Positions 1 to 25,715 of a DNA stretch of 25,715 nucleotides are shown here, piece by piece. The DNA is from a virus. Location of the stretch: IMG/VR virus record IMGVR_UViG_3300006027_000055, positions 1-25,715 of that record, one strand, 5' to 3'. Position 1 is the stretch's first letter; each line of letters starts with the position of its first letter. A model generated the notes under the pieces. That model ran no database searches. It saw only the letters and a program-made list of their open reading frames with translations, and had not been told where the DNA came from. The translations under genes and the position numbers were made by a program.

Positions 1-129
1 CAGTAATGTCCCAGTTTCTCTTTTTTTCAGAAGAGATGACTTGTTTTTAAACGGTTTTTTTGACGCTTTAATAGTAGGTTTTTGCATTTGATTCCTCTTG
101 TTCTCTTCTTGCGTTTTCCTTTTCGACAT
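1..129 (-). CDS. 5'-end of a basic protein, tape-measure position (partial)
   Basis: Only the first 43 codons are present; the gene runs off the left edge. The ATG is at 129-127. The visible N-terminus is strongly basic and hydrophilic (MSKRKTQEENKRNQ, then many Lys: KASKKPFKNKSS). A purine-rich stretch (AGGTGAGGG) lies just upstream on the minus strand and can serve as ribosome binding site. The start overlaps the end of the gp51-like frameshift segment in another frame, which suggests translational coupling. In many tailed phages the gene after a frameshifted tail chaperone pair encodes the tape measure; in T4 gp29 follows 26-51-27-28. A tape-measure role is therefore an inference from position only: there is too little sequence to recognise a family. 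Confidence 0.55.
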   Translation of the reverse strand, partial: MSKRKTQEENKRNQMQKPTIKASKKPFKNKSSLLKKRETGTLL

Positions 130-277
130 AAGCCCTCACCTGCGCCACATATACTTCTCTTTCCCACGGTATCCAGTTTTCTATCTCTGTCAGATTGTAT
201 CCATGATAGTGAATTAACTGGAAATTTAATTTAAAGTAATTAGATAAGTCTAAATGACTGAGGGCTATACGAAAAAA
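68..277 (-). CDS. 51: gp51-like segment, expressed by -1 frameshift from gp26
   Basis: This 69-codon open frame on the minus strand is in the -1 frame relative to gp26 and ends at TAA (70-68). It holds no ATG or TTG codon, and its only GTG lies deep inside, so it cannot easily be started independently. Its sequence looks like a real protein: HYHGYNLTEIENWIPWERE followed by VYVAQVRAYVEKENARR, a pattern (short tyrosine/histidine motif, P-W-E-R, amphipathic helix) that I associate with T4-type gp51 hub-assembly proteins and the downstream halves of tail assembly chaperones. In T4 gene 51 directly follows 26. Slippage at T-TTT-TTC (277-271) would give a fusion of about 300 residues (233 from gp26 plus 67). 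Identification as gp51 is from memory of the family and its position; the frameshift is inferred. Confidence 0.68.
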   Translation of the reverse strand, partial: FFRIALSHLDLSNYFKLNFQLIHYHGYNLTEIENWIPWEREVYVAQVRAYVEKENARREQEESNAKTYY

Positions 278-969
278 TCTTTAATTCCCTCAAATTGAAT
301 TGTTTTTTCATGATCTCCTTCGATGTACTGTTTCTTTGTTATCAATTTTGGCATTTTATCAAAATAATCTAATACTTTTTGAAACTGTTTCTTATTCATA
401 CTCTCCACAAAATCTTGCTTTTCTCTATCAGAGTAAATTTCTGCGTTTAGTTTTTCTTCTGGGGTTTCAATCTGTAAAAGGCATTTGGATATCATTTCGA
501 TATAATTTTCAGAATCTGAAGATGTGATTTTATCTGTCAAAAAGTCTTTCACTCTTGGATGTCTAAATGTTACCGAAAGTCTGTCGTTTAAGTCTATTTC
601 TTTATCTCCGAATTCGCCTATAATTTCAATATCTTCACCCAAATCAATTGAAAATTCTATTGGGTTTCCATCTTCCCCAAGAACACTAAAGTCAACTATC
701 TCTCCGATTGATTTGCTTCTTAGTTGAAGCAAAAGATATTCGAGATCCGACATGTATAGTTCGTTGATATCTTCGATTCCCTCGAAACAGTTTTTGATCA
801 AATTTGAAAGAGTCAGAATCATGTCTTTTTCTGAATTAGATGTTTCTAGTGCAGTTAAAAGTGTTTTTTCATCTCTTACTAAAAATGGTCTATAACTTAC
901 GCTTTTTTTACTTGAGGGTATTGTTGTTTGATACCTTGGCATCGACTCCAATAATATATCAGATAGCAT
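265..969 (-). CDS. 26: baseplate hub assembly protein gp26 (T4 baseplate family)
   Basis: This 234-residue protein matches the T4 gp26 'T4 bacteriophage base plate protein' family in length (T4 gp26 is about 208) and in its N-terminus: LLESMPRYQTTIPSSKK followed by RPFLVRDEK at residues 27-35, the family's conserved P-S-x-K-K...R-P-F-L-V-x-E-K signature. The rest is acidic and helical with no membrane segment. In T4, gp26 acts with gp51 and gp28 in assembling the baseplate hub. The ATG at 969 is preceded by AAGGAG with a 7-nt spacer; a second ATG 4 nt upstream is out of frame and stops after four codons. The gene lies downstream of the tube-fold gene in a minus-strand operon. Its last codons form a slippery T-TTT-TTC, making it the zero-frame partner of a probable -1 frameshift. 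Confidence 0.87.
   Translation of the reverse strand: MLSDILLESMPRYQTTIPSSKKSVSYRPFLVRDEKTLLTALETSNSEKDMILTLSNLIKNCFEGIEDINELYMSDLEYLLLQLRSKSIGEIVDFSVLGEDGNPIEFSIDLGEDIEIIGEFGDKEIDLNDRLSVTFRHPRVKDFLTDKITSSDSENYIEMISKCLLQIETPEEKLNAEIYSDREKQDFVESMNKKQFQKVLDYFDKMPKLITKKQYIEGDHEKTIQFEGIKDFFV
271..291 (-). promoter_or_regulatory. candidate programmed -1 ribosomal frameshift site
   Basis: On the minus strand the gp26 reading frame passes GAT-TTT-TTC-GTA-TAG. T-TTT-TTC (277-271) fits the X-XXY-YYZ slippery pattern, so both tRNAs can re-pair in the -1 frame, which then stays open for 67 codons past the slip. GAGGG (291-287) sits 9 nt upstream of the heptamer and could act as an internal Shine-Dalgarno stimulator of the kind known from dnaX. 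Only a weak 4-bp hairpin (TAGA/TCTA) is seen downstream, so the stimulator is more likely the upstream element. The zero-frame stop comes two codons after the heptamer. Confidence 0.68.
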
Positions 970-980
970 TCATAATCTCC

Positions 981-1523
981 TTAAATTTTGTCAAACTGAT
1001 AATCTTTATACGCAAACAACACGGTATAATTTACGGTGCTATTTTTTGTTTCGTTGCTGAATTCTATGGGCAATATCTCAACAGGAAATGCTTCGAAGAA
1101 TCTATATCTTGGCATTCCTACATTTAGTGTTTTATTGTTGAATGCTCTTTCCTGTAGAGTCACCATACCTCCTGATAGTGTTTTAAACGGAGTTAAAATA
1201 TCACTAACTGGGTTAATTAATTGATTCATCCAATTTTCTATTCGTTCTTGAATAGATCCAAATTCATCTAATTTAAAAGTAATTGATAAATCTCCATAAT
1301 TTCTTTTGTATGGTATTTTTCTTTTTACTCCATAGTAAGCATACTCTTTTGTAAGAACTGATCTAGTCCCTGTGGTAAAACTCACAACAGGCTGACTGAA
1401 TGCAGTGTTAACATCATATTGAGTTCCATCGGGTATGGTGATAAAAGCATCAAATTGATGCGATTTGACAGGAGGGTTTTCTGTAATTCTATTTACAAGC
1501 GAATCTACTCTAGGATCTGCCAT
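981..1523 (-). CDS. tail-tube-fold protein (gp19-like)
   Basis: This 180-residue protein has the size and pattern of a T4 gp19-type tail tube subunit (T4 gp19 has 163 residues). A glycine-led beta strand followed by an acidic residue and a helix with a Trp (YGDLSITFKLDE, then IQERIENWMNQL, residues 76-102) parallels the gp19 segment before its fvdWq motif. The C-terminal beta hairpin (ILPIEFSN...VNYTVLFAYKDYQFD) parallels the gp19 ending. The ATG at 1523 is preceded by GGAG with a run of A residues, and the first codons overlap the end of gp4 by 14 nt. A tube-fold baseplate protein (gp54/gp48 class) is the main alternative, because this gene is among gp4 and gp26 rather than beside a sheath gene. 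Assignment to the fold is fairly good; the exact role is uncertain. Confidence 0.6.
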   Translation of the reverse strand: MADPRVDSLVNRITENPPVKSHQFDAFITIPDGTQYDVNTAFSQPVVSFTTGTRSVLTKEYAYYGVKRKIPYKRNYGDLSITFKLDEFGSIQERIENWMNQLINPVSDILTPFKTLSGGMVTLQERAFNNKTLNVGMPRYRFFEAFPVEILPIEFSNETKNSTVNYTVLFAYKDYQFDKI

Positions 1524-1962
1524 TTTTTTTCTCCGGGAAAATTTGTTTCTCTGTTAAAATGACAAATCTCCAGTTCTTGTCTTTACACACCTTTTCTGCT
1601 GCTTCCCACTTTGATTTATTTATTTCATAAGTGAGGCATTCTCCCAAGAAAGCCTTGGTTTTTTTTCTTGGCTTTGGTGGTTTTGTCTGTTTGTCGGGTT
1701 TTACTTCGATGACGAGGGTTTCTATCTCACCATTGTCTTTTTTATGTTCTGCTATGAAATCTGGGTAATATTTGTGTACTTTATTGTCTTTTGGTGAAAG
1801 ATATGGAATTGCAATCTCTTCGCTGCCCCAACGCAGTATATTTTTGTTGCTGTCCATCCATTTACAGACTTTTCTTTCCCATAAAGATCTGCAAATAATT
1901 TTTACTGGATTGCCTATATACTTGGAAGCATTGTTAGGGTAAAATTTAGTTTTATATGCCAT
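1510..1962 (-). CDS. 4: head completion protein gp4 (TnsA/PD-(D/E)XK nuclease fold)
   Basis: This 150-residue protein is a clear T4 gp4 (also called gp50/65) head completion protein. Recognisable blocks are FYPNNASKYIGNP, RSLWERKVCKWMD (residues 25-37), RWGSEEIAIPYLSP, YYPDF (65-69), LVIEVKP (83-89) and, near the end, KWEAAEKVCKDKNWRFVILTE. The PD...E-x-K arrangement (D68, E86, K88, with E29 upstream) is the nuclease core of the TnsA-like fold and looks intact. In T4, gp4 is added to DNA-filled heads before tail joining. No convincing Shine-Dalgarno lies before the ATG (the 24 nt upstream are pyrimidine-rich), though the N-terminus fits the family well. It is the first gene of the minus-strand operon and overlaps the next gene by 14 nt. 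Confidence 0.93.
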   Translation of the reverse strand: MAYKTKFYPNNASKYIGNPVKIICRSLWERKVCKWMDSNKNILRWGSEEIAIPYLSPKDNKVHKYYPDFIAEHKKDNGEIETLVIEVKPDKQTKPPKPRKKTKAFLGECLTYEINKSKWEAAEKVCKDKNWRFVILTEKQIFPEKKNGRS

Positions 1963-3731: not shown

Positions 3732-6655
3732 CCGATAATAAATTACCCACACAGATTACAATCGAAAAAGCAGTTCTTGTCAAAATGGATGGTTCTGTTA
3801 GTATGGATCTTCTTTCTGAAGAAAACGGTACACCTCCATTTCGGGGGGTAGTTTTTAATGAGAGTTTGTTCGAACCTTCGGTTACGGGTAAATTATTCAT
3901 AGAGGACAAAAACTCATTTGGAGAACTTTTTAACATTACTGGGTACGAAATCCTAGAAATGACTACAAAAAGTTTCGATGAAGAAACATCTCAAGATTTT
4001 AAATTTCATGTGGGCGAAGTTAGTGAAATTTCAGATAGTGCAAGCACAACAATTGACGGCTTTGGTGGACCCTCGACAGTTTACACGATAGAACTCCAAC
4101 CATTTGAAGTTGAATATTTCAACACCGAGGAAGCCATTCCTGAAGGTTCTTCTTTCATAGGAAAAATTGCAGACGATGAAGGAAGGGGACTTGTTAATAA
4201 CTTAGCGTTACGATATTTTTCTCCGGAGTCAACAGAGTTTTCTTCTACAAGAAAAGAAATGGACATCGAGCCAACTCTAAATTCCATTTGGAACAAAAAA
4301 GAACAAGCCGGTTATCCCTACAGTAAATTTACAAGCAAACCTCACTTAATGCAGTACATGAATTATCTTACAGAGAACGCTATCTCGAAAGATAATGTAA
4401 ATGCAGCAAACTATCTTTTCTGGCAGGATTTAGATCAGTGGCATTTTAGATCAATCGACAGTCTTATTAAAGATGGTGATCCTAAACAATATAAAGTCAA
4501 TCCAATCGCATTCGATGAAAAAAACACAATTACTAGTTTTACTTTCACGAAAAAAATTAATCAAAAAGAACTTCTAAATTCACCAGCATATAAATCTTAT
4601 TATCATCATATTTCACCTGCATATTATGATTCATATGCAGAGTATATGACAACAAAAGATAAACTGATTCGGACAACAGTTTCATATGATTATTTCAAGG
4701 ACTATGATAACTGGAGTCACTTAGAAGAATATCAACTTCTTCCAGAAAAACTAAAAAATGAAAGTACCAGAGGACCTGAAATCTTTGATTCTTTCTATGG
4801 GTTTTTCAATATCAATGAATACAATGATCCATCTCCGACGAAGTTTGATTACACCACATCTACCACGGACAAGAATTCATTTCCATCGTGGCAAACAATG
4901 TTCGATCAAACTGATTTGCAAATTGATCCATTAAATACTATAAAGACTGATGTGTTTAGTGCGGACAATCTGGATCTAATTAATCAGTACGCTTCCAAAC
5001 GACTTCTCAAAGAGAAGTGGAATGTTTACAAGTATTCTATCTGTTGCGAAGATCAACCGACACCCGAAAAAGAAGAAATTGGACTGGGGATGATTGTTGG
5101 TTATACCACTCCAGATAATAATTCATATTATTATAAAGTTGCACCCGTTGAAATTTGGATAGGTGGGACCGCAGAGGCAGAAAGAATTTTAAACACAGGA
5201 AATTTCCAAGATGAAAATTTCTTAGTCGTAGCACAAAGTATCACTGGTGGTTCCGGACCAGATTCAAGAGTTCAAACGGTAGATGCATTTAATATAACAG
5301 AAATATTTAATGGTCCTAAAGGAAAGTCTAACGGAATTCGTTTAACCGATTTCTATGAAAAATATTATCCACACTCAATTATACCAGAGGAAGTAGATTG
5401 CACTTTAGACGAACCTGAGCAGTTGGCATTTAATGATGACACAGACGAAGGTGGCGGAGAAGGTGGTGGATGTGTCATAGTTTTACCTCCGGAATCTGGA
5501 TCGGCCGGGTGTGTAGTTCCGGTGTGCGATCCATTTGATGAAAACTATAGTTGTGGGTGGGGTGGAACTGATGTTCGATGCTGGCAATGTGATGGGGGTA
5601 GTTGGATAGAGGGTGGAGTTGGGTCGGATGGTCAATGTTGTGGTCCAGAACCCGAACCACAAGTTCTAGCATGTAGAGAAACCCGAGATAGTGTTGAGTG
5701 TAGTATTGAACCAATATGTTCTTGCTGCTGTGATCCATTATGCACACCAATAAATGAAACTGATTTGACCGAGTGTCCAGATGGATATTGTGGAGAACCA
5801 ATGCTCGGAGCTTGCTGTCCAACAGAGGAAACCATAGAAGATGGATCATATACTGAATGCGAAGAAAATGTTACCGCATCTTATTGTGCATCAGTTAATG
5901 GTAATTTTGGTGCTTTCGGTATTTGTGAAAATTGTGAAGACGCAGAACCCGATCTTCCTGTTTTTGGATGCTGTAAATGTACATCCTTTGGTTTGCCAAC
6001 CTGTACAACATATTTCGAATCTGATGTTGAGGGCGAAGGAACAGGGGAATTAGAGCAGCAATGTATTGACGGTGGAGGAGAAGTTATTTACGCAGATGAA
6101 AATAATCCAGAGGATGATCCATGCAGTCGTTGCACAGCAGAGACTGCTCCATGTCCACCTGATGGTGAAGACCAAGAATGTTGCTTCGAAGGTTTCGGTG
6201 GATTAACAATAGACTACTTCCGTCAGTTTGATCGATATAAAGAAGATACTGTAATTGGACCAGTGGGAAGTCTTCCTTCGATTACCGGAGGTGCTACATT
6301 CGATTGCATGAGATACGAGAGCATTACATCCGGTGGATTCGAATTTGATGCAGATGGAAACTACGATCGACTAGGGGAAACAAAACTTCTGAAGGGAACT
6401 ATTGTTAGATTGTTCCGCGTAGAAAAATCTTCTTTGGTGCATATATCTCCACGCGACCAAGATGATGAATACATTTATCTCTTCGAGTCTCCTCAACCAG
6501 TAAATCAATTCGTGATCGGCGAGCATCAAGGTATTTCCTGTGGATTAAATGATCCAGAGAACGGAGAAATCCCTGCAAGTCAATGTGGAATTAAATTCCC
6601 TGCGAGCGATCAATTACCACCTCTAGATCAGGGCGAAGGAGGGTTCAATGATTGA
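3728..6655 (+). CDS. gp27-type baseplate hub, N-terminal gene with Cys-rich insertion
   Basis: This 975-residue protein begins with a hub domain of the gp27 class found in T4-related phages: NESLFEPSVTGKLFIEDKN (residues ~44-62), then the F-x-F-H-V strand and EISDSAST, and NYLFWQDLDQWHFRSIDSL at 228-246, equivalent to the family's F-Y/F-W-...-G-F-x-F-x-S-x-D-S-L. The hub trimer sits at the tip of the tail tube. After residue ~557 comes a region of about 260 residues (558-819) with about 34 cysteines, including Cys doublets, a CCC, and two repeats of the same family as in the downstream adhesins (GACC at nt ~5810 and FGCC at ~5967). A final domain (820-975) returns to ordinary composition. The usual hub C-terminal domain is absent and is found in the next gene, which overlaps by 8 nt. 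The ATG overlaps the gp53 stop. Confident as hub; the Cys region's role is unknown. Confidence 0.78.
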   Translation: MTDNKLPTQITIEKAVLVKMDGSVSMDLLSEENGTPPFRGVVFNESLFEPSVTGKLFIEDKNSFGELFNITGYEILEMTTKSFDEETSQDFKFHVGEVSEISDSASTTIDGFGGPSTVYTIELQPFEVEYFNTEEAIPEGSSFIGKIADDEGRGLVNNLALRYFSPESTEFSSTRKEMDIEPTLNSIWNKKEQAGYPYSKFTSKPHLMQYMNYLTENAISKDNVNAANYLFWQDLDQWHFRSIDSLIKDGDPKQYKVNPIAFDEKNTITSFTFTKKINQKELLNSPAYKSYYHHISPAYYDSYAEYMTTKDKLIRTTVSYDYFKDYDNWSHLEEYQLLPEKLKNESTRGPEIFDSFYGFFNINEYNDPSPTKFDYTTSTTDKNSFPSWQTMFDQTDLQIDPLNTIKTDVFSADNLDLINQYASKRLLKEKWNVYKYSICCEDQPTPEKEEIGLGMIVGYTTPDNNSYYYKVAPVEIWIGGTAEAERILNTGNFQDENFLVVAQSITGGSGPDSRVQTVDAFNITEIFNGPKGKSNGIRLTDFYEKYYPHSIIPEEVDCTLDEPEQLAFNDDTDEGGGEGGGCVIVLPPESGSAGCVVPVCDPFDENYSCGWGGTDVRCWQCDGGSWIEGGVGSDGQCCGPEPEPQVLACRETRDSVECSIEPICSCCCDPLCTPINETDLTECPDGYCGEPMLGACCPTEETIEDGSYTECEENVTASYCASVNGNFGAFGICENCEDAEPDLPVFGCCKCTSFGLPTCTTYFESDVEGEGTGELEQQCIDGGGEVIYADENNPEDDPCSRCTAETAPCPPDGEDQECCFEGFGGLTIDYFRQFDRYKEDTVIGPVGSLPSITGGATFDCMRYESITSGGFEFDADGNYDRLGETKLLKGTIVRLFRVEKSSLVHISPRDQDDEYIYLFESPQPVNQFVIGEHQGISCGLNDPENGEIPASQCGIKFPASDQLPPLDQGEGGFND
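5399..6184 (+). repeat. Cys-rich repeat insertion in the hub protein
   Basis: The segment codes for residues 558-819 of the hub. About 34 of 262 residues are Cys. Two units fit the repeat seen in the tail adhesins; the better one runs GACC-x13-C-x8-C-x12-C-x2-C. The first half is less regular and rich in Gly, Asp, Glu and Pro (GGGEGGG, PEPEP). Flanking sequence on both sides is ordinary in composition, so it looks inserted. Confidence 0.75.
6636..6642 (+). promoter_or_regulatory. strong Shine-Dalgarno for the second hub gene
   Basis: AAGGAGG lies 5 nt before the ATG at 6648, inside the end of the preceding gene. It argues that the second hub gene starts independently by coupled re-initiation instead of being read as a frameshift fusion. 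Confidence 0.75.
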
Positions 6656-16247: not shown

Positions 16248-17453
16248 ATGAGCTGTAGCGCAAGTTCCAATTTACAGGGTAACAGTGTTACTCAAAACCC
16301 AAACGGTATTCCTTCTAGACTAGTTTTAAATTTAGATGCTACTTCCGATTTTTACACTCTGGATGCAGGTATTACAAACGGAGATGCGATTAGATTTCAG
16401 CCTACTCCATTTGGAACAACTGGAACATATCGAAGATCTCAAGGAAATAACAACGAAAATGCTGAAGTAGTTGGTGTAGTTGAAGCAATTGATACTAATG
16501 GAAATTTGACTGTTGTTCTTCGTGGAACCATAAACCACCCCCAAACTAATTTCGAATACAATCAGGATAGTTTTGGATCTACTTTAGGCGCATCTGGTGG
16601 GAATGATATTTTCTTCCTAAGTGATGGAGTTTCTGGTGGATTTATGAATCTAGCACCAACAGAGCCTGGAACGATCGCAAAACCAGTACTACAAAGAATA
16701 TCAGACTCTGCTGGATCTTATAACTTCCAAGTTTTAAATTATATCGGATATCAAATAGGTGGAGATTTAGTTGCAGAGACACAGAGTGCCTTACCTATTG
16801 GATCCTTCATAAAAGTTCCAAGATCATCTATAGTGCCAAATGGATGGGTGGAAACCTCAACATCCACAAGCACCCCATTAGATTTAGATGTAATATTATA
16901 TCCTGATTATTATGCGTTTGCAGGTAAATCTTTTGGTTTTATACAAACTCTGCAATTAACAGGAATCACAGTCACATCTACGCTTGTCGGGGCAACCATA
17001 ACACAAAAAACACCGCAGGGTATAGTTTATACAACTGGAATTATTAAATCAGTCCAAGGCGGCAGTTCAGTTAAAGTTCAAATGTCGATAAATGCGCAAG
17101 AATTTATATCTGATACCACTTATCCCGTTTCAGTAGTTCTTTCTTCGCCCGGCCAACCACTAACCGGAACAATCAGATCATCAACAATAACTTCAGTTAT
17201 GGTTCCAACTGTTGTTGATAACAGTCCAATTGTTTTCAATATATTTAACACTGATATAACTCCTCCTTTCAAAACATTAGTTAAAGTGAGGGATGTTGTT
17301 GGAGTTAGTATTCCAAGAAATGTTACAGTAGAAGACATGACTGTTTTATCTGAATTAATTTTAGGTAATACATATTCTAATGTTTCATCAACATTAGACA
17401 ATATAATTTCTAGAATAGAAACATTGGAAAATACTATTAACGGAGCATCTTAG
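16248..17453 (+). CDS. tail-collar-like structural protein
   Basis: In this 401-residue protein, residues ~15-175 form a beta domain homologous by eye to residues ~100-240 of the preceding protein: NAEVVGVVEAID, VVLRGTINH, FFLSDGVSGGFM, PGTIAKPVLQ. Residues ~182-232 resemble a degenerate phage tail-collar hairpin (PIGSFIKVPRSSIVPNGWVE, then YPDYYAFAGKSFG), where the family reads I-G-x-I...P-x-G-W and Y-P-x-L-Y-x-x-x-G-x-x-F-G. The usual C-D-G after G-W is missing. The C-terminus (LSELILGNTYSNVSSTLDNI followed by a heptad-like ISRIETLENTI) is a likely coiled coil that could trimerise. The ATG lies 2 nt after the previous stop, with AAGAGGA upstream. The last base of its TAG is the first base of the next GTG start. 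Confidence 0.65.
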   Translation: MSCSASSNLQGNSVTQNPNGIPSRLVLNLDATSDFYTLDAGITNGDAIRFQPTPFGTTGTYRRSQGNNNENAEVVGVVEAIDTNGNLTVVLRGTINHPQTNFEYNQDSFGSTLGASGGNDIFFLSDGVSGGFMNLAPTEPGTIAKPVLQRISDSAGSYNFQVLNYIGYQIGGDLVAETQSALPIGSFIKVPRSSIVPNGWVETSTSTSTPLDLDVILYPDYYAFAGKSFGFIQTLQLTGITVTSTLVGATITQKTPQGIVYTTGIIKSVQGGSSVKVQMSINAQEFISDTTYPVSVVLSSPGQPLTGTIRSSTITSVMVPTVVDNSPIVFNIFNTDITPPFKTLVKVRDVVGVSIPRNVTVEDMTVLSELILGNTYSNVSSTLDNIISRIETLENTINGAS

Positions 17454-20380
17454 TGATTTACGGTAGCAGTAGAATATCCATATTAGGTGCTACCGCTGCA
17501 ACTGGACCCACTGGAAACACCGGACCTACTGGACCGACTGGTAACACGGGTTCAGGAGTAGTCGGTCCAACGGGTAATACCGGAATAGATATAACTTCGA
17601 TAGACAATTTAAATAATGCGGGTATTCTTGGTACGACATTCAGTGATGGAACTTTTGTACTCAGTTCTTTTGTTATAAAAGGACCTACTGGCACTGCACG
17701 AATAGGAATTACGGGTGATAATAAGGGAACCGGGATTACCCTTCTTTCATCCGCTGGTGTTGATTATTCTGGATTAACTCTTCGAAGCATTAAAGGTAAC
17801 ACTTTAACCAGCGGTGATCTAGTTGATGTAACCCAAACAGATAAAGAAATTGTTGTTACTGTAGATGATTTTGGTGAGTTGGAAACTGGTTACTTAAACT
17901 TAACAGGAGTAACATCACAAAATTCTCTAATCACATTTACTTCTTCTGGTGCAGGTGGAAATCCTGTATCCATCGATAATACCAACTATGATCCAAGCAC
18001 CAAAACTCTTTCTTTCACGGTGAAGGACTATAGAGAAACAGCAAGAGAAATTACCTTATCTGGAATAACTTTGGACGGAGGAAACCAAGTTGAAGGTTTA
18101 GATGCTTACAGTTTTAGTATCAATCCAGAAGAAGCAAAACTTTTTAAGATAGATTTAAATGCAAAGGGTTGTGATCCCAGTTGTCCTGTTCTTTTCAATA
18201 TAGAATCACCAGCAAATGCCCAATATGGAAATTCTTTTACTCTTATCGTAAAAGGGGCAACAGGAACAACGCCTCTAACACAAAGATTTTCATCTAATGT
18301 ATCTTTCCCCTTTGATAAAGAACCATGTTTTAGTGGATCCACTGACATATTTAACTTCTTCTGGATTCCGAATCAATGGTATGGAAACTTAGTTAAGTGG
18401 GGTGATAATACTGAAACCGGCAACACTGCTTTCGGTTGCAATAATTTGGAACCATTTTCTTCGGGAACAAACAATCCTTTTAATCCAGGTCAACAGGGAG
18501 CAGTCGAAGCAACGGGTGCCTGCTGCGAAGGAAATGGTATATGCATCGAGTCTTCGATTAGTGGTTGCATTGGATTTTTTCATGGAGTCGGAACAACTTG
18601 TGGTAACACAGGAAACACTGGAGAGGGAATTTGCAATCAAAGAGGACCTTGTTGCATATACAATGAAATCTACAATTCAACACAATGTAATTTATTAACA
18701 TGCGACGAGTGCTTAACTCTAAACAGTCAAGACGGAATCAAAACTACATTCGGAGGAAATGGTAAGTCTTGTAATGATATTTCATGCCCCTCTGCTGCGG
18801 TTGGTATTGGAGCGTGTTGTAATGGACTGGGCGTTTGCGAACAAAAGAATGAAGTTAACTGCATCAAAGATGGTGGTTTTTTCCGAGGTGTTGGAATATC
18901 TTGCTTAGACTATTTTGATGAAAACATTTGTTCTACTGGAACTGGTTCCTGCTGCTTGGGTAAAAATTCTTGTATAGATGGTCAACAATTTGACGACTGT
19001 TTGGATGCAGGTGGACTTTATGCGGGGAATGGTTCAACATGTGCAGAATTAGTATGTCCAAATGTAAACAGTGTTTCATGCTTTGGTATTGTTGATAATC
19101 AATTAGTGAAGCCTGGAGATTTATTTGCAGGTGGATTGGTTGTGGGAATATTCAATCCTTACTATGCAAAAGTTGCGGGTGCAGAAAAACAATTTGTAGG
19201 TCAAAGTACAACATACACGAATGAATGTGGTACTACCGGCCAATATATGAGCATGTCTGAAATTACTGCGGATATTTATAGAACACCATATGATCATCAT
19301 GGTTATGGTTTCGGAGCATCAGGTGAACAACAAGTTTCTTGTGCAGATATAAATTCCAATACGATGCCCGGGGAAAATGAAAGCAGACCTGATTCATACC
19401 TTATGGTTGTCTCTTTGGATCCAGTTGCAGTGGATGGAAACGGAGATTTGGTCACACCGGGTCGGGGAGTCACGCAGAATTTTGTGTGGTCAAATTACGG
19501 CTCTTCGTGGGGTCCAACAATAAACTTACAAAATCCAAGAGCGCAGAATTATGGAATTTATGATGAAGAATACTCAGACATTGGAAGATATCTAGAGGGG
19601 TTCTGGACATCATCTATTGCCGTTGGTGGTGCAGCATGTGTGCTAGAACAAGGTTTGGTTTCTTCGTGTGCATATGCAAGATCACTCGGATCAGATTGGA
19701 ATCTGAGAATCGCATCCATACCTCCAAGAAGTCCAAATGGTTTTTGGAGAAGAAATTGGGGACTGTTCAACACCATTCGAATGGTCAACGCGGACAACGC
19801 AGAATATATTAATTTCAATTCAAGAGGAAACTTTGATTCTACTATATTCGGCCCATCAATCACAGGTGGAGATTACACCTCTGCCCGTGCAGTTAGACTC
19901 TTGCCTGACGGATTAACATCAGAAATGCAGGGGATAACTGCAAATCCAGAAACTGTTTCTCCTTGGTATCTTCCTAGTCATGATGAATTAGGATTCCTTG
20001 CTTCGCATTGTTTGAGAGACGGAAACTCGCCGTATAGTTTTGATTTAAACAGTGAACTATTGATGAATGGAGGAACACCTTTCCTCGGATGGTATTGGTC
20101 TTCCACGGGTTCGTTTAACGGTAATACTGCGGGTGAAGGTAAAGCGGCATTCAGTGGAACCGTTGATGGACCTGGTAGTGTTGCATGGGCAATGAAGTTC
20201 CCTGAATCTGGTGCTTTGACAGATTTTAAATCTGCAAGGAAACATAGAACTAATAATAAATACAAGGTAAGACCTATCAGGCTAATAAGGTGTGATGGTC
20301 TTTATGGAACAACCGGATCTTCGCCCGATCTTCAACTAGACAAATCCTGGCTAGTTCCGCCAGTACTGAGAGATATCTAA
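17453..20380 (+). CDS. collagen-like, Cys-repeat adhesin with DUF1566-like C-terminus (1 of 3)
   Basis: This 975-residue protein starts at GTG (GTG ATT TAC), overlapping the previous TAG by one base. Order of parts: N-terminal peptide with YGSSR; Gly-X-Thr collagen-like triplets at residues 18-44; a beta-rich middle to ~350, including FNFFWIPNQWYGNLVKWG; four Cys repeats at 355-535 (about 25 Cys, for example GSCC-x5-C-x8-C-x13-C-x4-C); then a C-terminal domain from ~536. In the last part, WYLPSHDELGFLASH (838-852), GWYWSSTGS and YKVRPIRLIRC (937-947) fit the DUF1566 pattern W-x-L-P-x-x-x-E-L...Y-W-S-S-T...V-R-x-I/V-R, a C-type-lectin-like fold. Collagen-like stalks in phage tails form trimers. 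A surface adhesin or receptor-binding role is inferred from architecture and position. There is no signal peptide. Confidence 0.7.
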   Translation: MIYGSSRISILGATAATGPTGNTGPTGPTGNTGSGVVGPTGNTGIDITSIDNLNNAGILGTTFSDGTFVLSSFVIKGPTGTARIGITGDNKGTGITLLSSAGVDYSGLTLRSIKGNTLTSGDLVDVTQTDKEIVVTVDDFGELETGYLNLTGVTSQNSLITFTSSGAGGNPVSIDNTNYDPSTKTLSFTVKDYRETAREITLSGITLDGGNQVEGLDAYSFSINPEEAKLFKIDLNAKGCDPSCPVLFNIESPANAQYGNSFTLIVKGATGTTPLTQRFSSNVSFPFDKEPCFSGSTDIFNFFWIPNQWYGNLVKWGDNTETGNTAFGCNNLEPFSSGTNNPFNPGQQGAVEATGACCEGNGICIESSISGCIGFFHGVGTTCGNTGNTGEGICNQRGPCCIYNEIYNSTQCNLLTCDECLTLNSQDGIKTTFGGNGKSCNDISCPSAAVGIGACCNGLGVCEQKNEVNCIKDGGFFRGVGISCLDYFDENICSTGTGSCCLGKNSCIDGQQFDDCLDAGGLYAGNGSTCAELVCPNVNSVSCFGIVDNQLVKPGDLFAGGLVVGIFNPYYAKVAGAEKQFVGQSTTYTNECGTTGQYMSMSEITADIYRTPYDHHGYGFGASGEQQVSCADINSNTMPGENESRPDSYLMVVSLDPVAVDGNGDLVTPGRGVTQNFVWSNYGSSWGPTINLQNPRAQNYGIYDEEYSDIGRYLEGFWTSSIAVGGAACVLEQGLVSSCAYARSLGSDWNLRIASIPPRSPNGFWRRNWGLFNTIRMVNADNAEYINFNSRGNFDSTIFGPSITGGDYTSARAVRLLPDGLTSEMQGITANPETVSPWYLPSHDELGFLASHCLRDGNSPYSFDLNSELLMNGGTPFLGWYWSSTGSFNGNTAGEGKAAFSGTVDGPGSVAWAMKFPESGALTDFKSARKHRTNNKYKVRPIRLIRCDGLYGTTGSSPDLQLDKSWLVPPVLRDI
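17504..17584 (+). repeat. collagen-like Gly-X-Thr tract, protein 1
   Basis: The segment codes for about nine Gly-X-Y triplets (GPT, GNT, GPT, GPT, GNT...) at residues 18-44, with one interruption (GSGVV). Thr in the Y position is usual in bacterial and phage collagen-like stalks. Confidence 0.88.
18515..19057 (+). repeat. four Cys-rich repeats, protein 1
   Basis: The segment codes for residues 355-535. Units begin at GACC, GPCC, GACC and GSCC. Units 3 and 4 are regular: CC-x5-C-x7-C-x13-C-x8-C and CC-x5-C-x8-C-x13-C-x4-C, each with a G-G-(F/L)-(F/Y)-x-G-x-G block before the fifth Cys. Unit 2 has extra Cys. Confidence 0.85.
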
Positions 20381-23322
20381 TGCCATTCAGAGGAAGCAGC
20401 AGACTTTTAAGAGTAATTAAAGGAGATCAAGGTCCAATTGGTCCAACTGGTCCAACTGGTCCTACCGGCAACACTGGAGATACAGGTGCAACTGGGCCGA
20501 CCGGAGCAACTGGAGTTGGTATTTCTGGTGCCGTTTCTTTCGAGAGTGGAGTTATAAAAGGAATTACTTTTACTCTCGTTGATGGGACAACCTTTGAATT
20601 GATTGGATTTACTGGAGAAACCTCCGATGGGGTTCTCGTTAATGCTAAATATTCTATATTCAACGAAAACTCAGATCTATTAGATCATGCTAAAATATTT
20701 AGAGGTTTCGTAGATTCTGTTGGAGTTGGTACAGGATTAGTTCCGAAAACAGCGCAATTTAGAACTTTAAATGTTCAAGGTAATAGAGTAAATGTTCGTG
20801 GTGATGCCAATGAAATGCTCATTCTCGAAGGAATCACTCTTCCCGGCAGAATCGGAGAAATAGGACAACTTCTCTATACAAATGGAGGAAATAGTGGATC
20901 TGCATCCACTGATCAATTAAATGCATTTTTGGGTAACACTTTTTCCGCTGTAGTTTCTCGACTCATCGAGAGAGGAATTGCTAGTGATATTTACGCTGAG
21001 TTTTTTGGGTGGGATCAATCCTACGCAAATAACTGGATCTTCCCTGCAAACTTTGATGTTTTACCCGGTGTATCCAACTACAACGAATATGCAGGTATAA
21101 ATCAAAGCAAAGCAGTAACAGGAGATAATGTTCAGGGCTTTGTTTTACCAAAAAACGATTTGTATGAAAATGCAGCACAAACAAGATTTTCGACAATCTA
21201 TGGCAATTTTGAATTAAAACCATTTATTGATATAGGAACTGGAGGGGATGACACTCCAATAACTTTTGAATTTGCAAGACATAAACCACACGGTATTACC
21301 ATGTCTTCGTTTAACGATACAGTCGGTTCTTGTTGTTTCTGCTCTTCTCCGGATATTGTAACCGGACAATATGGCACTCAATGTTTAGATTATGTAACAA
21401 AGTCTTATTGTGATAATCTTTTAGGAACATTTGGAACCACTGCATGTGCGGTTAGAGATGAAGGACCGGAATGTCAAGATACGGTTCCCTGTTGTGTGAA
21501 TGGAAATTGCGTTGATACAAGTCTAGAAAAATGTGACAAGTTTAACGGCATCGCTTTCCCTGACCTGGTAACATGTGCTGCTCTAGGTCAATGTCCAGAT
21601 ATTTGTCCCGGAGAAGATGGTGCTTGTTGTATCAATGGAGTTTGCTACTCGTTTAACGAAGAAAATTGCGCTCTAGTGAATGGAATTTTCCATGCAGGGA
21701 AAAATTGTCAGCCCTATGATCCAATAGACAATCCTAACGGATATAATTGCTGTCTTGATTCGTTCCCCGGTGCCTGCTGCATTAGTTCAGAAGAAGGTGG
21801 GGTTCCCGGAACCAATTGTTATGATAACTATACCGCACTTCAATGCTATCAAGCAGGTGGACATTATCAAGGTGCAGGAAGTTCTTGCTATGACAGTAAT
21901 GACGATTCCGATGTAGGTGATTTAGTTCTTGTTGGATATAGTGATAATGGAGATGCAATACTTCGAAGATGCTGTACAGATCCCTGTACAGATCCTCTAA
22001 CTGGAGAATTAGATCCCGAATGTCTTGATACCTTAAATGAACAATGCCAAGTAAGTCTTAATCCGTGTCACTCATATGAACTTGGAGCGGAAATAAATCC
22101 AAATGAAAAATATGCTGGTTACTTTGGGTATCCGGCAAACGAGTGCGCCGGAGAAGATTATCCGATAGGGGCTTATGGTAGAACAATTCGGGAACTTGCA
22201 GTTCTCGGGAGCAGTAGACCTGGAATTTCTTATCAACCAACTGTGGGTCGATATAATACAGTCTCTCCATGTGATCACTTACCTGCAATTCATGTTCGAA
22301 ATATGGGTAGCGGTTCCGGACAATCAGTTGAATTAAACTACAAGCGCGGACATCTTTCTGAAATTGGGTTGCTTCTAAACAATCCTTTTGATGATACGAC
22401 AGAATTTTATGATCCAGATGACGGAGCAAAGTATAACGAATTAGCAACAGAAATATATGGATCTGGATATAATGTCGATAGAAGATGGGCAATTCTTGTT
22501 AAGGATCAGGACGAACAATTGGATGGTGGTGGTTCTGAATTTAGTTGGGGCCCGGCGAATAGAATTGGTTTGGGAATTCTTCAAGATCCTCTGAAAAATT
22601 GGGCAACATCTCCGACAGACGGTTACTTAAATTCCAGATTGCACGGAGATCCTCGGTTACACGAAAATACAAATTTATGGTTCTGGGATAATGTATTTGG
22701 GTTTGATCCGGAAGCATACAATAGATGGGTGGATGAAACATTTAATCCTTGGCCGAGTGATGCGACAGAAACAGAAATCGAAAATCTACCGGAACAATTT
22801 AGAACTTTCTACGAACAAATGTGGGACGCTCAGAATGTAGGAACTGCGATGGGAACCGTAAATGGCCAATGGTATGTTCCAAGTATTACTGAATTAAATC
22901 ATCTGCTATATGTTCAGCAATTTAAAGGCATTAACTTAAACATGTCCGGAACTTATTGGTCTTCGACATCAGGAAAGATTAAACAGTCTAATTCAGAATT
23001 CCCATACGGAAGACCCTCAGAATGGTTGGGTGCAGAAACCGAGACAGATTACGCTTCATCTCCTTGGTTGAGTGATCCATATCTTGCATATAAAGCGGCA
23101 AGTGGTTACTATTCCTTCGCTCAAGAATTTTCTCAATCTGGCGCGATTGGTGACATATATAGTAAGCACAAGACAAATGAAACGGCAAAGGTGAGACTTA
23201 TCAAGAGAATACCAATTTATGTTGCAAGCCCACTTTGCTACAACCCACAATCATATCCGATTATTTTGGACTGTAATGATAGATCTGGTCCTTGCGCGTG
23301 CGGAGGAGATGTTTTACTATGA
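20380..23322 (+). CDS. collagen-like, Cys-repeat adhesin with DUF1566-like C-terminus (2 of 3)
   Basis: This 980-residue protein is almost the same length as its upstream paralogue. Its ATG overlaps the previous TAA (TAATG). Parts: N-terminal FRGSSRLLRVIKG; eleven Gly-X-Y triplets at residues 15-47 (GDQ, GPI, GPT x3, GNT...); a middle domain with RTLNVQGNRVNVRGD; Cys repeats at 316-563 (about 32 Cys, units starting GSCC, VPCC, GACC, GACC); and a long C-terminal region with a DUF1566-like end: QWYVPSITELNHLLYVQQ from 830, SGTYWSSTSGK, and AKVRLIKRI near 944. Middle and C-terminal loops differ greatly from paralogue 1, whereas the framework motifs are kept. A short Cys/Gly tail (CACGG) closes it. 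Probably a second virion-surface adhesin; no enzymatic motif was recognised. Confidence 0.7.
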   Translation: MPFRGSSRLLRVIKGDQGPIGPTGPTGPTGNTGDTGATGPTGATGVGISGAVSFESGVIKGITFTLVDGTTFELIGFTGETSDGVLVNAKYSIFNENSDLLDHAKIFRGFVDSVGVGTGLVPKTAQFRTLNVQGNRVNVRGDANEMLILEGITLPGRIGEIGQLLYTNGGNSGSASTDQLNAFLGNTFSAVVSRLIERGIASDIYAEFFGWDQSYANNWIFPANFDVLPGVSNYNEYAGINQSKAVTGDNVQGFVLPKNDLYENAAQTRFSTIYGNFELKPFIDIGTGGDDTPITFEFARHKPHGITMSSFNDTVGSCCFCSSPDIVTGQYGTQCLDYVTKSYCDNLLGTFGTTACAVRDEGPECQDTVPCCVNGNCVDTSLEKCDKFNGIAFPDLVTCAALGQCPDICPGEDGACCINGVCYSFNEENCALVNGIFHAGKNCQPYDPIDNPNGYNCCLDSFPGACCISSEEGGVPGTNCYDNYTALQCYQAGGHYQGAGSSCYDSNDDSDVGDLVLVGYSDNGDAILRRCCTDPCTDPLTGELDPECLDTLNEQCQVSLNPCHSYELGAEINPNEKYAGYFGYPANECAGEDYPIGAYGRTIRELAVLGSSRPGISYQPTVGRYNTVSPCDHLPAIHVRNMGSGSGQSVELNYKRGHLSEIGLLLNNPFDDTTEFYDPDDGAKYNELATEIYGSGYNVDRRWAILVKDQDEQLDGGGSEFSWGPANRIGLGILQDPLKNWATSPTDGYLNSRLHGDPRLHENTNLWFWDNVFGFDPEAYNRWVDETFNPWPSDATETEIENLPEQFRTFYEQMWDAQNVGTAMGTVNGQWYVPSITELNHLLYVQQFKGINLNMSGTYWSSTSGKIKQSNSEFPYGRPSEWLGAETETDYASSPWLSDPYLAYKAASGYYSFAQEFSQSGAIGDIYSKHKTNETAKVRLIKRIPIYVASPLCYNPQSYPIILDCNDRSGPCACGGDVLL
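20422..20520 (+). repeat. collagen-like Gly-X-Thr tract, protein 2
   Basis: Eleven uninterrupted Gly-X-Y triplets at residues 15-47 (GDQ, GPI, GPT, GPT, GPT, GNT, GDT, GAT, GPT, GAT, GVG). The tract starts within three residues of those in the neighbouring paralogues. Confidence 0.9.
21325..22068 (+). repeat. four Cys-rich repeats, protein 2
   Basis: The segment codes for residues 316-563. The clearest unit is GACC-x4-C-x7-C-x12-C. The last unit has a longer first loop (GACC-x11-C-x8-C-x13-C). A Cys-containing tail (TDPC, PEC, EQC, NPC) links it to the C-terminal region. Confidence 0.82.
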
Positions 23323-25715
23323 GCAGAGGAAGTAGTTCTATAAATGCAGTAAGTGCTATTACTGGTAACACAGGACCAGACGGACCAACAGGACCTATTG
23401 GACCAACTGGAAATACTGGACCCACTGGAGGAACTGGTGAGACAGGAGCCAGTGGTCCATCTGTTATAAGCAGTAAGTATGCGAGTGATGGTAGACTTGT
23501 ACTCGTTCTCACCGATGATACAGAAATTACAATTGATGGATTGACTGGTGATTTTTCTGTTTGGTCAGGTGAAGTTACCGGGGAAAATTTAACAACTACC
23601 GGATCTAAACTATTCCTTAGTGGACCTGATGGAACTACTAAAGGAAATACCTTTGAGTTTGTTTCCATTACTGGTGACGGTATTATAGAGGTCACTGGAG
23701 ATGGAACCTCAGTAATCATTGGAGCAACTTTATCGGCATCCGAAATTGCAATTGGGTTCAGTGGTGCAAGCGGAATTGCGTATCTTTTTCAAGAAAATGT
23801 AGTTCACTCAACAACCGCTGATAATTTATCAATACAATCTCCTTCGGTTATAAATCCAAACAGAAAAAGAAATGCTTTGGACTTTATGGGATCTACCAGT
23901 GATACTGGATCGGCACTAAAAACATACGACAAAACACAATCAGTCGGACCTTTTTCTGCAACAGATGTAATCGGAATTACTGGATCAATCGCAACAGGAC
24001 AAGGTGATGCTCAACCCGGTGAAGGTATTTTCTTGGATGTTTCTGCCGGGACAATGATTAATATTAACGCAAACTGGCCAGGAGTTGGTATTCAAGGATT
24101 CACTGGATATCAACTCGATGATGATTATGAACAAGTTATTAGTTTCACCGCTGTTGTGAATGGAAATTATTTCTGGAAATTCCCTGATCATGTATTCTTC
24201 GAAGAAGGAGAAGACTACTTTAGTTGTGGGTCAGATATTGTTAACTTCACTGCAATAAAAGACTTCACCGCACTCAATCAACCATATAAATGGTTTGCTA
24301 CATTTGCGGCAAGGGGATATGGAGTTACTAGTTGTCAAAATTCTGGATCTTTTGGTTCCTGCTGCTTAAGTTCATCAGATACCGGATTTGAATGTATTGA
24401 CTTTGTTGATCAATTCACCTGCACTCAAGAGTTGGGTGGAGAGTATTCTGCATTCCAGTCATGTGCAAATGGTTGTGGCGAAAGAAAGGGAGTTTGTTGC
24501 TCTCAGGGTGAGTGTAACGGTGATGTAAGTCCTGAAGAGTGTGAATTCTATAACGGAACTTACTGGGTTGGTGTAGCCTGCGGAGAAGAGGAAACCGAAA
24601 ATCCAGGCTTAAACTTAGGATTTGATGGTCCAGACATTGATAACCCCGGAGAGGGTGGAGACACAGAAGAAGATAACACTCCGACATATCCAAATGATCC
24701 CGATGCATCTAACAGAGATAGATTCTGTTACGATCCATGTAAAGCACCTTTAGCATGTTGTAGAAACGGCGAATGTCTGGGTGATTATTCCCAAATTCAA
24801 TGCGAAGAAATTTTAGGTGGCGTTTCAATCTCTCCTCCGCCGGGATCTCCAGCAGGATGTGGTTATGTTAATTGCTGCGAAGCCATTAAATATGAAGGTG
24901 CTTGCTGCTTTGGTTTTACTGGAGCAGAAGGACAAGAGCAATATTGCGAAGATTCAGTTTATGTTTATGATTGTCACGCCAGAGGTGGTGTCTTCATGGG
25001 CCATGCAACACAATGTGCAAATATTGATTGTTGCATTAATGATTTAGATGAAAGAGCGGCTTGCTGTACTTACAATTTTGGCACCGACAGTTATACTTGT
25101 GAAGACGGAAAATCAGAAGAAGAGTGTTTGGCTCAAGGTGGACAATGGCAAGGTTTTAATTCAGAAAACGCACCAGTTGTCTGTGCAGATAATCCATGTC
25201 CTAGTATCAATGACAAATTCGCATGTTGCACACAACTTTCGGATGGTTCTTATCAATGCAATGAAACATACGAAGAACAATGCACTGGTCTTTGGTTTGA
25301 TAACACGGCATGTTCTTCAGATCCATGTCCAACTCCACCAAACGGTTCTTGCTGTAAATGGATAATGGAAGAAGGTCAATATGAATGCAATGACAATGTT
25401 CCACTAACAGAATGTCAAGACGACAATGATATTTGGAGAGATGTTGCAAACGGAGAACCTAATTGCTCTGAAGAAGATTGTCCTATAAAGGGTGCTTGCT
25501 GTGTTACACTTCCAACTGGTCAAGTGGTGTGTTCAGAAGTTTTGCAATCAGTCTGTGATGCACTGGAAAATGGTGCCTTTGCCGGTGAGGGAGTAGAGTG
25601 TTCTAATGAGTTATGTGGAGTTTGCCCTGACGGATTCCCCCCTGATGAAGATGGATGTCGGTGCGGTGAACCTCCAAATCCCCCATGTCCTCCTGAAGTG
25701 CTTTGCTGCGGTTGT
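23319..25715 (+). CDS. collagen-like, Cys-repeat adhesin (3 of 3, 3'-partial)
   Basis: The frame stays open from ATG at 23319 (ATGA overlap with the previous stop) to the window edge: 799 codons without a stop. The N-terminus MSRGSSSINAVS matches the GSS motif of the two upstream paralogues. Gly-X-Y triplets lie at residues 16-48. A beta-rich middle follows (YFWKFPDHVFFEEG, WFATFAARGYG). From residue 346 to the edge there are at least eight Cys repeats with about 58 Cys, twice as many units as in either paralogue, closing with a Pro/Cys stretch (EPPNPPCPPEVLCCGC). The C-terminal domain is beyond the edge; by analogy it may be DUF1566-like, but that is not seen. Likely virion-surface protein. 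Confidence 0.72.
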   Translation, partial: MSRGSSSINAVSAITGNTGPDGPTGPIGPTGNTGPTGGTGETGASGPSVISSKYASDGRLVLVLTDDTEITIDGLTGDFSVWSGEVTGENLTTTGSKLFLSGPDGTTKGNTFEFVSITGDGIIEVTGDGTSVIIGATLSASEIAIGFSGASGIAYLFQENVVHSTTADNLSIQSPSVINPNRKRNALDFMGSTSDTGSALKTYDKTQSVGPFSATDVIGITGSIATGQGDAQPGEGIFLDVSAGTMININANWPGVGIQGFTGYQLDDDYEQVISFTAVVNGNYFWKFPDHVFFEEGEDYFSCGSDIVNFTAIKDFTALNQPYKWFATFAARGYGVTSCQNSGSFGSCCLSSSDTGFECIDFVDQFTCTQELGGEYSAFQSCANGCGERKGVCCSQGECNGDVSPEECEFYNGTYWVGVACGEEETENPGLNLGFDGPDIDNPGEGGDTEEDNTPTYPNDPDASNRDRFCYDPCKAPLACCRNGECLGDYSQIQCEEILGGVSISPPPGSPAGCGYVNCCEAIKYEGACCFGFTGAEGQEQYCEDSVYVYDCHARGGVFMGHATQCANIDCCINDLDERAACCTYNFGTDSYTCEDGKSEEECLAQGGQWQGFNSENAPVVCADNPCPSINDKFACCTQLSDGSYQCNETYEEQCTGLWFDNTACSSDPCPTPPNGSCCKWIMEEGQYECNDNVPLTECQDDNDIWRDVANGEPNCSEEDCPIKGACCVTLPTGQVVCSEVLQSVCDALENGAFAGEGVECSNELCGVCPDGFPPDEDGCRCGEPPNPPCPPEVLCCGC
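23364..23462 (+). repeat. collagen-like Gly-X-Thr tract, protein 3
   Basis: Eleven Gly-X-Y triplets at residues 16-48 (GNT, GPD, GPT, GPI, GPT, GNT, GPT, GGT, GET, GAS, GPS). Confidence 0.9.
24354..25715 (+). repeat. at least eight Cys-rich repeats, protein 3
   Basis: Units start at GSCC, GVCC, LACC, GACC, AACC, FACC, GSCC and GACC. The last one is CC-x9-C-x7-C-x14-C-x4-C. Units 2 and 3 are separated by an acidic linker (residues ~424-465). The array may continue past the window. Confidence 0.85.

Follow-up and report, generated by a model that had tools for sequence, protein, structure and literature searches.

The stretch of DNA analysed here (the window, 25,715 nucleotides) corresponds to positions 1 to 25,715 of IMG/VR record IMGVR_UViG_3300006027_000055 and comes from a marine T4-like phage. 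Close to its first position, on the minus strand, a gp26-like gene is followed by an open stretch in the -1 frame, which we refer to as the extension (Table 1). The gene order is tail tube, gp26, extension and tape-measure-like gene, the last of these assigned on a weak match of the 449-residue downstream protein to PHROG 23574 (tape measure; E=4.9e-4), and annotated relatives display the order tube, gp26, gp51 and a large gene. The gp26-like protein matches Pfam family PF12322 (T4_baseplate; E=4.4e-47) and PHROG 150 (baseplate hub; E=3.7e-45), while the extension matches PHROG 634, the baseplate hub assembly catalyst gp51 (E=2.7e-23, profile positions 58–119 of 121), placing the two parts in the gp26/gp51 family of T4. 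Elsewhere in the window, a gp4-like head closure protein (1510–1962, minus strand) matches the TnsA-like endonuclease family PF08722 (8.1e-22), and three large proteins encoded on the plus strand (17453–25715) carry collagen-like GPTGPTGNTG repeats near the N-terminus together with repeated cysteine-rich blocks; the latter are probably tail fibre or adhesin proteins.

Table 1. Features at the gp26 locus of the window, with the basis for each assignment.
Feature	Position	Strand	Basis
Tail-tube-like gene, directly upstream of gp26	981-1523	minus	PHROG 45 tail tube, E=1.3e-13 (same protein in L002)
gp26-like protein of 234 aa; proposed short form of the chaperone (TAC-N)	265-969	minus	PF12322 and PHROG 150
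Inverted repeat TGAGGG (287-292) / CCCTCA (259-264) around the heptamer, role uncertain	259-292	minus	Fold z = -2.26
SD-like GAGGG, preceding the heptamer by 9 nt; may stimulate frameshifting	287-291	minus	Direct reading; relatives
T_TTT_TTC slippery heptamer, in frame with gp26 and followed by GTA TAG	271-277	minus	Direct reading; same place in relatives
Zero-frame stop TAG of gp26	265-267	minus	Direct reading
Extension in the -1 frame (67 codons), gp51-like and proposed as the TAC-C domain; stop TAA at 68-70	71-271	minus	PHROG 634, alignment, dN/dS
Tape-measure-like gene, 5' end; overlaps the last part of the extension	1-129	minus	Complete in L002 (449 aa, ORF 3841-5190)

The 3' end of gp26 reads GAG GGA ATT AAA GAT TTT TTC GTA TAG on the minus strand. 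The heptamer within this reading has the X_XXY_YYZ form of a -1 slippery site, stands in the zero frame ahead of the stop and is kept in relatives. The original prediction had placed it near the end of gp26, which is where it lies, with the clarification that a single codon (GTA) separates it from the stop. The chance of finding 67 open codons in the -1 frame, computed from base composition, is about 0.004, and this value, taken with the PHROG 634 match and the conservation of the heptamer in relatives (84/84 and 97/97 loci, see below), argues that the frame is open beyond chance. In the extension of the window phage no ATG, GTG or TTG occurs until codon 42, which is GTG, and the predicted fusion of gp26 to the extension is 300 aa long. 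The original prediction is borne out on each of these points: a protein-like open frame, with no ATG or TTG and only a deep internal GTG, a GAGGG preceding the heptamer by 9 nt, and a predicted fusion of about 300 residues.

Relatives were collected using the extension protein, and not the heptamer, as the query. This yielded 84 IMG/VR loci, all of which (84/84) have TTTTTTC one codon ahead of the gp26 stop; L002, which belongs to these 84, has the same sequence as the window at this locus. In a wider set, made up of the 84 IMG/VR contigs and 13 annotated phages hand-picked after inspection of their junctions, 97/97 loci carry the heptamer in this position (95 TTTTTTC and two TTTTTTT), although these relatives are non-independent and counts of invariance therefore overstate the number of separate tests. 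The set leaves out Pseudomonas phage Cygsa01 (L097), which lacks the heptamer, and Rhizobium phage IC12 (L098), which has it but was not aligned. The conservation among relatives anticipated by the original prediction is thus found, with a spacing from heptamer to stop of 0–3 nt (one codon in 94/97, none in 3/97). Phenylalanine codons in these genes are TTT or TTC in a ratio of 76:24, yet the second Phe of the heptamer is TTC in 95/97 loci. The codon immediately ahead of the heptamer specifies any of five amino acids (S, D, N, A, G), but its third base is T in all 97 loci, the sole case of an invariant third base among 146 amino-acid-variable columns.

Homopolymer runs are error-prone, and one long gene could in principle have been split here by a sequencing or assembly error. 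The same arrangement is however present in L002 and L003, two contigs identical to the window at the slip site, and in dozens of other genomes that include cultured isolates; this conservation refutes the explanation, to which we attach a negligible probability. The run might alternatively cause RNA polymerase to slip, so that the frame would be changed by the polymerase and not by the ribosome. We consider this extremely unlikely, given that the run is just six T in length and closed by C in 95/97 loci (seven T in the other two), that what is constrained is the X_XXY_YYZ pattern as set by the codon register, and that the SD-like and structural signals described below are placed where ribosomal frameshifting uses them.

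Substitutions in the extension fall mainly at third codon positions. In the 97-locus alignment, similarity to the extensions of relatives starts at the slip position and gaps are absent from the first 33 well-filled codon columns. Values of dN/dS were obtained with L002 as the reference, its extension being identical to that of the window, and with near-identical pairs and those with saturated dS excluded. The ratios are 0.0146/0.508 = 0.029 against L004 and 0.0146/0.572 = 0.026 against L006, with rougher values (dS > 1) of 0.189/1.394 = 0.135 against L005 and 0.189/1.939 = 0.097 against L014, giving a range of ~0.03–0.14 across the four pairs and showing the extension to be under selection. 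Among annotated phages, 571 records match the extension (E up to 1), cyanophages for the most part.

Many records annotate gp51 as a separate protein, which would be made by reinitiation or from a start codon of its own close to where gp26 ends. Such a start is available in part of the family: ATG is the fourth extension codon in 46/97 loci, the first extension start is at the seventh codon in 22/97, and TAATG stop-start overlaps are found in some distant phages (L096, L097 and L102). Separate translation nevertheless leaves the invariant heptamer unexplained, and the conserved homology starts at the slip, ahead of any early ATG. Moreover, an SD core is found just upstream of the first extension start in only 2/97 loci, as opposed to 94/97 upstream of the heptamer, and 17/97 loci, the window clade included, have no start within the first 12 extension codons, the window phage being the extreme case with none before the 42nd. 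We therefore regard independent synthesis of gp51 as very unlikely. In Cygsa01, a distant relative, the TAATG overlap is located at ~1990–1994, which suggests a third way of expressing the C-terminal domain.

Pairing with the anti-SD sequence across the 97 loci is strongest for 8-mers whose end lies 7–9 nt upstream of the heptamer, and an SD core is present no more than 18 nt upstream in 94/97. The window phage has a candidate stimulator of this kind at a suitable distance (GAGGG, 9 nt). When RNA folding was scanned in 50-nt segments across the relatives, the mean z was -1.65 for the segment starting at the heptamer end, the next strongest value being -0.78, and z was below -2 in 42/97 loci for the stretch from +4 to +49. 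No downstream stem-loop signal was found in the window phage (z = 0.20) or in its clade (-1.08 to 1.15). A single conserved downstream hairpin was considered and rejected, as a consensus fold of 96 distinct sequences contained a short downstream stem only, with individual stems in differing registers; this suggests that the downstream stimulator is fast-evolving. Stems of ~6 to 14 bp are predicted just 3' of the heptamer in L010, L012, L081 and L100, their registers varying by lineage. The GAGGG and CCCTC arms of the inverted repeat are retained in the near relatives L002, L004, L005, L006 and L014 but not family-wide. It is conceivable, though unlikely, that the SD-like element of the window clade pairs with the bases just past the stop (TGAGGG/CCCTCA) in place of a stem-loop, in which case the signal behind frameshifting may be another one, or one open to regulation.

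AlphaFold2 produced a confident model for gp26 (pLDDT 88) and a helical one of moderate confidence for the extension (pLDDT 70), and a structure search of a viral library returned baseplate hub and gp51-like proteins. A PDB fold search with gp26 gave no significant match among solved structures; the HK97 tail assembly chaperone 2ob9 appeared at ranks 5 and 9 with non-significant E-values (0.71 and 1.1). A search of NCBIfam returned nothing useful. Taking together the conservation of the heptamer, the lack of a usable start in the clade, the relatedness of gp51 and the extension, and the gene order, we conclude from sequence that gp26 and gp51 in this phage very probably form a pair of tail assembly chaperones of the lambda type, produced through -1 frameshifting, as originally proposed.

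The original prediction also drew on the fact that 26 and 51 are neighbouring genes in T4. They are indeed adjacent, and belong to the same protein families as the gp26 and extension of the window phage, but they are oppositely oriented, with 26 on the minus and 51 on the plus strand, and do not form a frameshift pair. T4 gp51 (249 aa) matches PF12322 over residues 1–201 and PHROG 150 over residues 3–248; at its C-terminus it aligns with the profile of the extension (hhalign E=1.8e-4). Comparison of the gp26 alignment with T4 gp51 by hhalign gave a short match of no value, and the N-terminal relationship of gp51 therefore rests on the Pfam and PHROG matches. T4 gp51 thus comprises a complete gp26-like protein followed by a C-terminal domain in common with the extension. 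T4 therefore encodes the long form as a gene of its own, whereas the long form of the window phage is predicted to arise by -1 frameshifting.

The locus resembles lambda G/GT in combining a short form with a -1 frameshifted long form (here predicted) between the tail tube and tape measure genes, and in having a C-terminal frame that likewise lacks a start of its own (the first being at the 42nd codon). It differs in that the window phage proteins have no family match to the lambda-type chaperone and belong to a T4-like, contractile-tail gene set. The lambda slippery heptamer is also different from T_TTT_TTC. Close counterparts are the cyanophage proteins annotated as 'gp51 baseplate hub assembly catalyst' (for example in P-SSM2, S-PM2 and S-SM2), which have the same extension and the same heptamer at the junction. 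Cyanophage records either list gp51 as a gene of its own or overlook it, and many of these phages have the early ATG that the window phage lacks; a joined gp26-gp51 gene is annotated in none of the 15 annotated gp26/gp51 loci examined.

In the mechanism that we propose, gp26 would serve as the short form of the tail assembly chaperone (TAC-N), with the -1 frame encoding its C-terminal domain, TAC-C, which cyanophage records annotate as 'gp51'. The majority of ribosomes would decode T TTT TTC GTA TAG and terminate to give the 234-aa short form. In a minority, both Phe tRNAs would slip back by one base on T_TTT_TTC, probably with help from the SD-like GAGGG that precedes the heptamer by 9 nt. 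These ribosomes would decode 67 further codons to produce TAC-NC, the long form of 300 aa. On the model of lambda gpG/gpGT, the tape measure protein, whose gene comes next, may then be coated by numerous short copies and a few long ones, with the C-terminal domain recruiting tail tube subunits.

The abstract of the work by Vladimirov and colleagues is said to describe frameshifting as conserved in several T4-like groups, and to name 26 and 51 for T4. Chaperone genes of T4-like phages are credited to Vladimirov, Gautam & Davidson (Virology 2022) in two citing papers, of which one relays that some T4-like phages have separate short and fused long genes (PMC10885494) and the other cites the study for poly-T slippery sites in T4-like TAC-N genes (PMC12846349). 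Earlier, Atkins et al. (2016; PMC5009743) had G-T frameshifting conserved in long-tailed phages 'except T4'. In the T4-like chaperones of Vladimirov et al., TAC-N is reportedly gp26 and TAC-C the region of gp51, with a poly-T -1 frameshift in some groups, as here. On that description we find no difference between their set and the window phage, an uncultured relative in which the extension is without a start near the junction. The link from T4 hub factors 26/51 to lambda-type chaperones, which the original prediction had put forward, is thus supported but, on these accounts, is already published (Vladimirov et al. 2022), and the window phage is a well-supported further case. For marine T4-like phages, the sequence evidence indicates that gp51 is in many cases not a gene by itself but the C-terminal portion of a tail assembly chaperone, reached by frameshifting. 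Frameshifting in the window lineage contrasts with a separate long-form gene in T4.
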